From Anaerolineales bacterium (lineage in GTDB: Bacteria > Chloroflexota > Anaerolineae > Anaerolineales > Villigracilaceae), in NCBI GenBank assembly GCA_020060625.1, contig JAGUZU010000051.1, positions 1 through 64,000 on the forward strand: a stretch of 64,000 bases of DNA. Direction: 5' to 3'. The position numbers were made by a program, and so were the translations under genes. This document shows positions 50,152 to 58,823 of this stretch, piece after piece. The notes beneath the pieces are model-generated. The model did not search any database and was not told the DNA's origin. It saw only the letters and a list, made by a program, of their open reading frames with translations. The stretch's first letter is position 1, and each line of letters opens with the position of its first letter.

Positions 50152-51045
50152 ATGAAGATCATGATTGCGGGAGGGTCGGGGTTCCTGGGCGGCGAGTTGA
50201 GCCGTTCCTTTCTCGCGGACCGACACCAGGTTTACATTCTCACACGCGGCTCGCGCGTTTGGGAAGGCGCGCAGGCTGTGAAGTGGGACGGGCAGACGAC
50301 GCAGGGTTGGGGGCGCCTCGTAGAAGAAATGGATGTGATCATTCACATGGCAGGGAAGACGCTCGCCTCCTGGCCCTGGACTGCCGCGACCAAACAAGCC
50401 TTCTACGACTCCCGCCTCATTCCCGGACGCGCGCTTGTTCAAGCCATCCAAACCGCGACCCGCCGCCCAAGCCTTTTCATCCAAGCCTCCGGCATAAATT
50501 ACTACGGATTGCATGGCGAACTTGCCGATGAAACCACGCCTCCGGGGGACGACTTCCTCGCGCGACTCGCCGTCGAATGGGAGCGGGCAACCGAGCCCGT
50601 GGAAGCATTGGGAGTTCGGCGCGTGGTTTTGCGCTCGGCGGTGGCGCTTTCCCGAAACGGCGGCTTGCTCGGTTTGATGGCGCTTCCCATCCGGCTGTTT
50701 GTCGGCGGTCCGTACGGCTCCGGCAAACATGCCATGCCATGGATCCACATCCGCGATTGGGTGGGGGCGGTGCGGCATTTGATCCAGAACGAGCAGGCTC
50801 GCGGAGTGTATAACCTGATCGCGCCCACACCCACATCGAATGCGGAGTTCAATCGGGCGCTTGCGAGCGCTTTACGCCGACCTTATTGGTTTCCAACGCC
50901 CGCATTTTTGTTGAGGACCTTTTTGGGGGAGATGAGCGTCCTTATCCTCGAAGGACGGTTTTCCCAGCCCAAACGGTTGACCGAGTCTGGGTTCGAGTTC
51001 CAGTTTCCGGGTCCGCGCGAGGCGCTGACCGATCTGTTTGGATAA
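50152..51045 (+). CDS. TIGR01777-type NAD-dependent epimerase
   Basis: MKIMIAGGSGFLGGELSRSFLADRH. Confidence 0.88.
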   Translation: MKIMIAGGSGFLGGELSRSFLADRHQVYILTRGSRVWEGAQAVKWDGQTTQGWGRLVEEMDVIIHMAGKTLASWPWTAATKQAFYDSRLIPGRALVQAIQTATRRPSLFIQASGINYYGLHGELADETTPPGDDFLARLAVEWERATEPVEALGVRRVVLRSAVALSRNGGLLGLMALPIRLFVGGPYGSGKHAMPWIHIRDWVGAVRHLIQNEQARGVYNLIAPTPTSNAEFNRALASALRRPYWFPTPAFLLRTFLGEMSVLILEGRFSQPKRLTESGFEFQFPGPREALTDLFG

Positions 51046-51061
51046 CGTCAAAGGAGAGTTA

Positions 51062-51745
51062 ATGTCCATGAAAAAGTTTATCGTGTTTTTACTGGTTTTC
51101 CTCACAGCCTGTTTGCCCGCCGCGCAGGAACCGCAGGTTGTCCTGCCGCAGTTTCTCCCGACGGCGACAGCGTATATCGATTCATCGTCGTATCCAACTG
51201 CGGAAGTGGCGCTGGCTGAACCGAATCAAACCGCAAGCGGAATTGACATCCGACTGGATCGCGTGTGGGTGGAAGGCAAGGATGTGAATGCCAACGTTTG
51301 TTTTTCGCTGCCCGATACGTCGGACTGGTCCATCTGGGCGGCGAGCCTGACCTACGGCGAGACGGTGTTGCAGGAATACGGCACGACGCTGGCAAGCCTG
51401 CAGGAGCCGGTGGATGGTCAGATCGGGGTGCGGTGCGATACGCTGACTTTTGTAGTGCCGCCCGATGCCGACCTTTCCAATGCGACGATTGTGATCGATT
51501 CCATTGCGGCGACTCCGCGCGAAGGCGATTATTGCGACCTTTACATGCCGAAGATCCAACAAGCGCTGCTCGAACGCGGCATCGGCATCATGCTGGAGTG
51601 CGTGGATGTGAACGGCGCGTTGACCATGCAGATCGTCAGCAAGCCGCCGGAGATGACGCAGGAGCAGGCGGAGCAGATCGTTTACAGCGACGAGTTCTTT
51701 TCGGTGGCGGGTCCGTGGACGTTTCCGTTCGATTTGGCGCAGTAA
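51062..51745 (+). CDS. Predicted lipoprotein, unknown function
   Basis: MSMKKFIVFLLVFLTACLP lipobox. Confidence 0.7.
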   Translation: MSMKKFIVFLLVFLTACLPAAQEPQVVLPQFLPTATAYIDSSSYPTAEVALAEPNQTASGIDIRLDRVWVEGKDVNANVCFSLPDTSDWSIWAASLTYGETVLQEYGTTLASLQEPVDGQIGVRCDTLTFVVPPDADLSNATIVIDSIAATPREGDYCDLYMPKIQQALLERGIGIMLECVDVNGALTMQIVSKPPEMTQEQAEQIVYSDEFFSVAGPWTFPFDLAQ

Positions 51746-51762
51746 AATTCTTGTTGTATAAT
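51734..51762 (+). promoter_or_regulatory. Promoter TTGGCG-17-TATAAT of the tyrS leader
   Basis: Direct reading. Confidence 0.7.
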
Positions 51763-51768
51763 TGCCGC

Positions 51769-51816
51769 ATGTCTGGAAAGACCCCCGACTGCAAATCCTA
51801 TTACGCGCGCCCGTAA
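51769..51816 (+). CDS. Candidate attenuation leader peptide MSGKTPDCKSYYARP
   Basis: ATG 7 nt after the -10 hexamer; tandem TAT TAC codons; intrinsic terminator downstream; upstream of tyrS. Confidence 0.65.
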   Translation: MSGKTPDCKSYYARP

Positions 51817-51840
51817 TTCCCATTGCGATGGTGTGCAACG

Positions 51841-51876
51841 AACGCGCCCCTCATCATCGTGGGCGCGTTTTTGTTT
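51841..51876 (+). terminator. Intrinsic terminator in the tyrS leader
   Basis: AACGCGCCC-ctcatcatcgt-GGGCGCGTT followed by TTTGTTT. Confidence 0.85.
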
Positions 51877-51936
51877 GGAAATCCATTTTCAGACCTTAAA
51901 GGCTTCAAAAAACCTTTAGGATCTTGGGAGCATGTT

Positions 51937-53148
51937 ATGAACATCGAAGAACAAGTTGAACTTTTGATGCAGGGCACGGATTACGGCGATGAAGATTTGA
52001 AGAAAGCCATGTCCGCTGAACTGCGCGAACGTCTCTTGCTTGCCCAAAAAGAGAAGCGACCTTTGCGTGTCTATTGTGGATACGATCCCACGTCCACAGA
52101 TTTGCATTTGGGACATACCATCTCCATGCGGAAACTGCGCCAGTTTCAGGATTTGGGACATGAAGTCACTTTTTTGATCGGGAGTTACACGGCGCTGGTT
52201 GGCGATCCTTCGGACAAGAACAAGGCGCGTCCTGTCCTGACCGAGGAGCAGGTTGCCGAAAACGCGAAGACATACGCCGAACAAGCCTTCCGCGTGCTGG
52301 ACCGCGACAAGACGAAGATTCGGTATAACGGTGAGTGGCTTTCCAAGTTGACGCTGGTGGATTTGATCCGCCTGGGGCAGAACTTTACCGTGCAGCAATT
52401 TCTGGCGCGTGAGAATTTTTCCAAACGCCTCGATAAAGGCGAACCGATCTACCTGCACGAGACCTTCTACGCTTTGATGCAGGGATACGACGCTGTCGCC
52501 ATGGAAACGGACATCCAGGTCGGCGGCTCGGATCAGCTATTCAATATCATTGTGGCGGGGCGCAAGTTGCAAGAGGCGCTTGGTCAAAAGCCGCTGGTGG
52601 GAATCATTACGGGCATCCTGCCGGGAACGGACGGCATGCAAAGAATGTCCAAGTCCACCGGAAACATTGTGCCGATCAACACGGGCGCGAACGACTTGTT
52701 TGGCAAGTTGATGTCTGTGCCGGATTCGGCGATGGGCGTTTATATGCGTCTGGTCACGCGCTGGAATCCGCATGACATTGCGAAGATCGAAAAGGATGTG
52801 GAATCCGGCGCGCTTCATCCGCGCGATGCGAAGATGAAGATGGCGAAGGAGATTACGAGTATTTTCTATGGCGATGACGAAGCAGAGTCCGCGCAGGAGG
52901 CTTTCGTCAAGACCTTTCAGCAAAAGGAAATTCCGGATGACATGCCGGAATATTCCCTGCAGGAGGGTCAGACCGTGGTGGATGTGATTCTGGGCGCAAA
53001 ACTTGCCGAGAGTAAAAATAAGGCTCGCGCGTTGATCGATCAAAAAGGCGTTCGTTTGGACGGCGAAGCGCTGGAGCGCGGCGATGCGCCCTTCCCGCAT
53101 CCCGGCATCTTGCAGGTTGGGAAGCGGCGGTTTGTAAGAGTGAAGTAG
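51937..53148 (+). CDS. tyrS: Tyrosyl-tRNA synthetase
   Basis: YCGYDPTSTDLHLGHTI, QVGGSDQLFNI, RMSKSTGN. Confidence 0.96.
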   Translation: MNIEEQVELLMQGTDYGDEDLKKAMSAELRERLLLAQKEKRPLRVYCGYDPTSTDLHLGHTISMRKLRQFQDLGHEVTFLIGSYTALVGDPSDKNKARPVLTEEQVAENAKTYAEQAFRVLDRDKTKIRYNGEWLSKLTLVDLIRLGQNFTVQQFLARENFSKRLDKGEPIYLHETFYALMQGYDAVAMETDIQVGGSDQLFNIIVAGRKLQEALGQKPLVGIITGILPGTDGMQRMSKSTGNIVPINTGANDLFGKLMSVPDSAMGVYMRLVTRWNPHDIAKIEKDVESGALHPRDAKMKMAKEITSIFYGDDEAESAQEAFVKTFQQKEIPDDMPEYSLQEGQTVVDVILGAKLAESKNKARALIDQKGVRLDGEALERGDAPFPHPGILQVGKRRFVRVK

Positions 53149-58666: not shown

Positions 58667-58749
58667 GTCTGTGTACAGAATCACGGCAAACCCTAAAGAG
58701 CCCGGAAATTCCCAAACAGGGTGACTTTGTTTTGTGTTATAATCCTGCC

Positions 58750-58823
58750 GTGGCGCCAAAAGCGCCACATATTTTGCCTGGGACGGGCAACAAGCGTCCC
58801 TGAGCGGGTAAACGACCCCCGCT
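58750..58823 (+). promoter_or_regulatory. Structured rpsB 5' leader with three tandem hairpins
   Basis: GTGGCGC/GCGCCAC, GGGACG/CGTCCC, AGCGGG/CCCGCT; extended -10 TGTTATAAT at 58735-58743. Confidence 0.6.

Follow-up and report, generated by a model that had tools for sequence, protein, structure and literature searches.

A predicted tyrosine attenuator with a putatively leaderless leader peptide upstream of tyrS in an Anaerolineales bacterium

A tyrS T-box riboswitch senses the charging of tRNA-Tyr upstream of tyrS. The tyrS leader examined here, within the 64,000-nt stretch of Anaerolineales DNA that was analysed (the window), would also sense tRNA-Tyr charging upstream of tyrS, but it has no T-box match. 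Rfam gives no family match at this leader, in agreement with the preliminary description of the locus, in which no T-box had been seen; the T-box that precedes pheS in this genome (RF00230, 104.8 bits; L351 2644-2907) serves as the positive control. Tyrosine genes are listed as T-box controlled (PMC1262725). The comparative evidence presented below indicates that the region contains a tyrosine attenuator of tyrS that is real, conserved and most likely functional.

Layout and conservation of the locus

The promoter, leader ORF, Tyr codons, terminator and competing pairing (Table 1) all occupy the coordinates assigned to them in the preliminary description. The TATAAT hexamer (51757-51762) is followed by 6 nt and then by the ATG at 51769, the T-rich tract behind the terminator arms runs to 51876, and GGGAG precedes the tyrS start at 51937. 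The attenuator element is present in a single copy in the genome. The upstream ORF (51038-51745) gave no match in a Pfam search. Between the terminator and tyrS lies a palindromic element, AGACCTTAAAGGCTT/AAACCTTTAGGATCT (51891-51924); similar sequences are dispersed in many genomes of the family, and this genome has a single copy of the exact form.

Table 1 Elements of the tyrS leader region, with coordinates as positions in the window.
Feature	Coordinates	Strand	Remarks
Upstream gene	51038-51745		ORF; small lipoprotein by appearance
-35 element TTGGCG	51734..51739	+	17 nt from TATAAT; overlaps last codons of the upstream lipoprotein-like gene
-10 element TATAAT	51757..51762	+	found in 60/60 relatives, with a 6-nt gap to the start codon in 59/60
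Leader peptide ORF MSGKTPDCKSYYARP and stop codon	51769..51816	+	predicted leaderless; an orthologous ORF in each of the 60 relatives
Tandem Tyr codons TAT TAC	51799..51804	+	putative sensor; 2-5 Tyr codons in every relative (60/60)
Segment 1, GCGCGCC	51805..51811	+	pairs with GGTGTGC (51830-51836) of segment 2, from the untranslated-leader fold and own-versus-cross duplex energies
Segment 2, GCGATGGTGTGC	51825..51836	+	predicted antiterminator 5' arm; starts 11 nt downstream of the stop codon's first base
Segment 3, CATCATCGT	51852..51860	+	terminator loop and predicted antiterminator 3' arm; 94.9% of cells paired, 58 sequences
Intrinsic terminator AACGCGCCC/GGGCGCGTT and T-rich tract	51841..51876	+	99.4% of cells paired, 58 sequences; arms at 51841-51849 and 51861-51869
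tyrS, tyrosine--tRNA ligase, 403 aa	51937..53148	+	putatively regulated gene; TIGR00234, 350 bits (cut-off 113.8)

Conservation was surveyed with a 207-nt region as query against 152 genomes of the same family. Almost every genome belonging to the same genus gave a strong match, with the region conserved at about 70-84%, and nearly all matches sit between the same upstream gene and tyrS. Sixty cleanly parsed loci constitute the set of relatives used here. Their leader ORFs comprise 14-17 codons and begin with ATG (58) or GTG (2), and tyrosine accounts for 21% of the leader codons (125 TAT and 71 TAC). The YY pair, whose lack of conservation in relatives would by the preliminary description have refuted its reading, is present in frame in 58/60 and in the other two frames in 0/60; shuffling the window leader yields YY in 0.5% of cases. 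The N-terminus of the peptide is poorly conserved, unlike the Tyr run and its spacing.

The 60 relatives were found by similarity to the leader and their uniformity is partly a product of this selection. A second set of loci, comprising 115 distinct upstream regions, was therefore assembled via the tyrS protein. The arrangement is present in 93 of the 115, with 76 stand-alone Tyr ORFs close behind a -10 element and 17 loci of a tail type described below; two more have YY ORFs without a -10 match, and about 20, many of them outside the family, are without the element. The automatic parse filed L131 as stand-alone, although by eye it is of the tail type, assigned the wrong start codon (spacing 5, some TTG) in about 10 loci that have a spacing of 6 by eye, and overlooked two degenerate leaders, those of L074 and L087, loci identical to L035 and L048 of the 60-relative set. 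A class-wide search for the pattern TATAAT..ATG..TATTAY gave matches outside the family that look like background. Two terminator-only matches (G028:C14 and G122:C20) were set aside because they had no tyrS match.

Several features bear on where the leader message starts. A TTGNCG-like -35 element at 17-nt spacing is found in most of 57 relatives, a conservation that may be partly due to the overlapping coding sequence. The distance from the -10 element to the ATG is 6 to 9 nt in distant members, which suggests a leaderless or almost leaderless ORF. Shine-Dalgarno-like sites stand before the leader in none of the 60 relatives and before tyrS in all 60. TATAAT-N5-7-ATG occurs at 127 sites in this genome compared with 17 for the reversed control, and leaderless genes thus appear to be common in it. 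From the spacing we infer that the leader message probably begins right at its start codon. No other leaderless amino-acid-rich leader was encountered in about 100 of the 127 sites with the strict TATAAT-N5-7-ATG pattern. A second leaderless-looking short ORF (MAPKAPHILPGTGNKRP), without an amino-acid run, lies at about 58738-58805 of the window before a gene starting MATISMKA. The upstream region of trpS in the same genome, read by eye, revealed no leader peptide; a cspA thermoregulator match (RF01766, 82.3 bits; L352 3554-3907) lies near trpS.

Competing pairings and the proposed switch

Part of segment 2, GCGATGGTG (51825-51833), is complementary to CATCATCG (51852-51859) in the terminator loop. 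The preliminary description had proposed this competing structure with CGATGGTG (51826-51833) as the 5' partner; the pairing is indeed present and its complementarity is kept in relatives. In several relatives the 2:3 pairing reaches into the beginning of the terminator's 3' arm, which makes antiterminator and terminator mutually exclusive. Calculated 2:3 duplex energies show that own pairings beat cross-species pairings, with 0/5000 permutations as good, and at 54 diverse loci the own duplex is stronger than those obtained after shuffling segment 2 (median z -3.0). The 1:2 pairing is predicted in the window and in many relatives; its duplex has a median z of -1.0 at 54 diverse loci and is weak in many distant clades. 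In other genera the segment sequences are replaced with retention of complementarity, for example GCGAGGG/CCCTCGC, and the further replaced 2/3 pairs CGCTGCGG/CCGCAGCG, CTGTGGAG/CTCCACAG and TTTTACGAC/GTCGTAAAA, all of these being read by eye. The best covariation within the genus is a three-way change from C-G-C to U-A-U in segments 1-2-3, restricted essentially to one clade. On the tyrS tree the segment-2 G-to-A change arose about two times; the within-genus covariation amounts to one or two events, too few for statistics. An ATTACG/CGTAAT hairpin previously suggested as a working part did not hold up: it is found in 1/60 relatives, is probably incidental, and is best replaced by the 1:2 pairing of GCGCGCC (51805-51811) with GGTGTGC (51830-51836).

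The distance from the last Tyr codon to the stop codon is 12 nt in 75/95 parsed loci, including 16/17 of the tail type, a spacing that fits ribosome-position sensing. Segment 2 begins 7-11 nt past the stop codon's first base (11 nt in the window) and 16-27 nt from the last Tyr codon. A ribosome covers about 12 nt ahead of its A site. With these spacings, a ribosome at the stop codon would mask the start of segment 2, and a ribosome stalled at the Tyr codons would not.

The following switch is proposed. Judging from the spacing, RNA polymerase would initiate on the A of the leader ATG or on a neighbouring base, and a ribosome would then be able to load on the 5' end of the RNA. When Tyr-tRNA(Tyr) is plentiful, the ribosome would reach the stop codon and mask the beginning of segment 2, whereupon the terminator would form. 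When Tyr-tRNA(Tyr) is scarce, the ribosome would stall on the Tyr run and cover segment 1, so that segment 2 could pair with segment 3 ahead of synthesis of the 3' terminator arm, with read-through into tyrS as the predicted outcome. In the absence of translation, segment 1 would pair with segment 2, making termination the default. Some members of the family have no separate leader, and there the attenuator would be fed by the Tyr-rich C-terminal end of a full-length gene upstream.

Folding predictions were made for three states of the window leader. The untranslated leader is predicted to form GCGCGCC/GGTGTGC and the terminator. The Tyr-stalled state is predicted to form the 2:3 antiterminator when the nascent end is at 51860 (-11.4 kcal/mol), and with a ribosome at the stop codon no full antiterminator is predicted, followed by the terminator. 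At full length the terminator is calculated to be the more stable structure in all three states; the switch must therefore be kinetic. The Tyr run, the distances, the terminator and the competing pairing lend comparative support to the Tyr-codon attenuator with a leaderless leader ORF that the preliminary description had put forward. Taken with the predicted folds, they suggest that a ribosome-mediated transcription attenuator very probably couples tyrS expression to charged tRNA-Tyr.

Loci with a tyrosine-rich tail in the upstream gene

About 18 loci, distributed over several genera, have no separate leader, and the upstream gene ends in YYxRx and a stop codon directly before the attenuator. 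The product of this tail gene is uncharacterised and about 165 aa long and probably contains a membrane segment; a Pfam search gave no match for it. The tail gene is often located just upstream of tyrS (L321-L350). YY is present in 17/17 homologues of the tail gene with the attenuator directly after them and in 0/11 homologues that are unlinked to tyrS in the sequence examined, that are accompanied by a separate leader or that lack an attenuator. Two tail-type exceptions (L337 and L340) keep YY with no visible terminator or attenuator. The association between YY and the attenuator (Fisher p of about 1e-6 ignoring kinship, with only 3-4 independent contrasts on the tree of the homologues) is suggestive.

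On this sequence evidence we lean towards the view that the sensor changed places between a leaderless leader ORF standing by itself and the C-terminal tail of the upstream membrane protein, whose last codons were remodelled to YYxRx and the stop codon. Translation of an ordinary protein would thereby report tRNA-Tyr charging to tyrS. In E. coli rph-pyrE, the end of a full-length upstream gene is the translated leader, and the coupling of ribosome and polymerase senses nucleotides. The tail-type loci are similar in that the end of a full-length gene would act as the leader and differ in that the tail contains tandem Tyr codons.

Known attenuators, alternative explanations and implications

The E. 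coli pheST attenuator employs the pheM leader. Like it and the predicted trpS and leuS attenuators of Streptomyces, the element described here has a short leader rich in the cognate residue, a putative antiterminator/terminator switch and a cognate synthetase gene; it differs in the residue, Tyr, in the phylum, Chloroflexota, and in a leader ORF that is predicted to be leaderless. Attenuators are known or predicted for the synthetase genes pheST, trpS and leuS (PMC1262725). The trpL of Sinorhizobium meliloti encodes a 14-aa attenuator leader peptide on an RNA that begins at the ATG (PMC7298713). Its leaderless nature was shown experimentally, whereas here it is predicted, and trpL controls Trp biosynthesis genes rather than a tRNA synthetase gene. 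Leaderless poly-Cys ORFs of mycobacteria are described as attenuators of operonic gene expression (Canestrari 2020, as cited in PMC13236596). Going by that citation, they too are short and leaderless and contain a run of a single residue, which is Cys; here it is Tyr and is combined with a conserved terminator/antiterminator pair. No conserved upstream hairpin was found for the mycobacterial cys operons (PMC1262725). No leader-peptide attenuator of tyrS or from Chloroflexi was found in the literature searched, a search that covered few subscription papers and is not proof of novelty.

The hairpin, a good intrinsic terminator lying about 95 nt past the stop codon of the upstream lipoprotein-like gene, could in principle terminate that gene, with the tyrS promoter located downstream and the short ORF incidental. 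However, the Tyr ORF, the start spacing and the terminator distance are kept where the upstream gene differs (L288, L291, L298 and L307), and the loop retains a conserved antiterminator partner, which renders this explanation very unlikely. A promoter and terminator so placed would also give a discrete RNA of about 107 nt, and trans-acting leader products have a precedent in S. meliloti (PMC7298713). That the locus encodes an independent small RNA, or a trans-acting peptide comparable to Sinorhizobium peTrpL, and exerts no cis control on tyrS is nevertheless extremely improbable in view of the tyrS linkage in nearly every match and, for a peptide, of an N-terminus that varies while the Tyr run and spacing are conserved. 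There may be an extra trans role beside cis control.

Control of tyrS translation or mRNA stability, instead of transcription, would find a parallel in the mycobacterial poly-Cys ORFs, which attenuate operonic gene expression according to the same citation (Canestrari 2020, in PMC13236596). It is hardly to be expected here, since a strong terminator with a T-tract is present in nearly every member, tyrS has its own Shine-Dalgarno site in 60/60 relatives, and the competing pairing is aimed at the terminator and not at that site.

As a transcription attenuator, the element would extend ribosome-mediated attenuation to tyrosine and tyrS, by means of a message predicted to be leaderless, in the phylum Chloroflexota, for which RNA regulation of this sort is all but absent from the papers searched. 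The T-box of pheS and the leader peptide of tyrS would constitute two unrelated sensors for two synthetases in one cell. The tail-type loci would show how an ordinary gene can take up a regulatory leader or set one free. If the attenuator works as predicted, transcription and translation would be closely coupled in these Anaerolineae, a property that is otherwise hard to test in organisms that are mostly uncultured.
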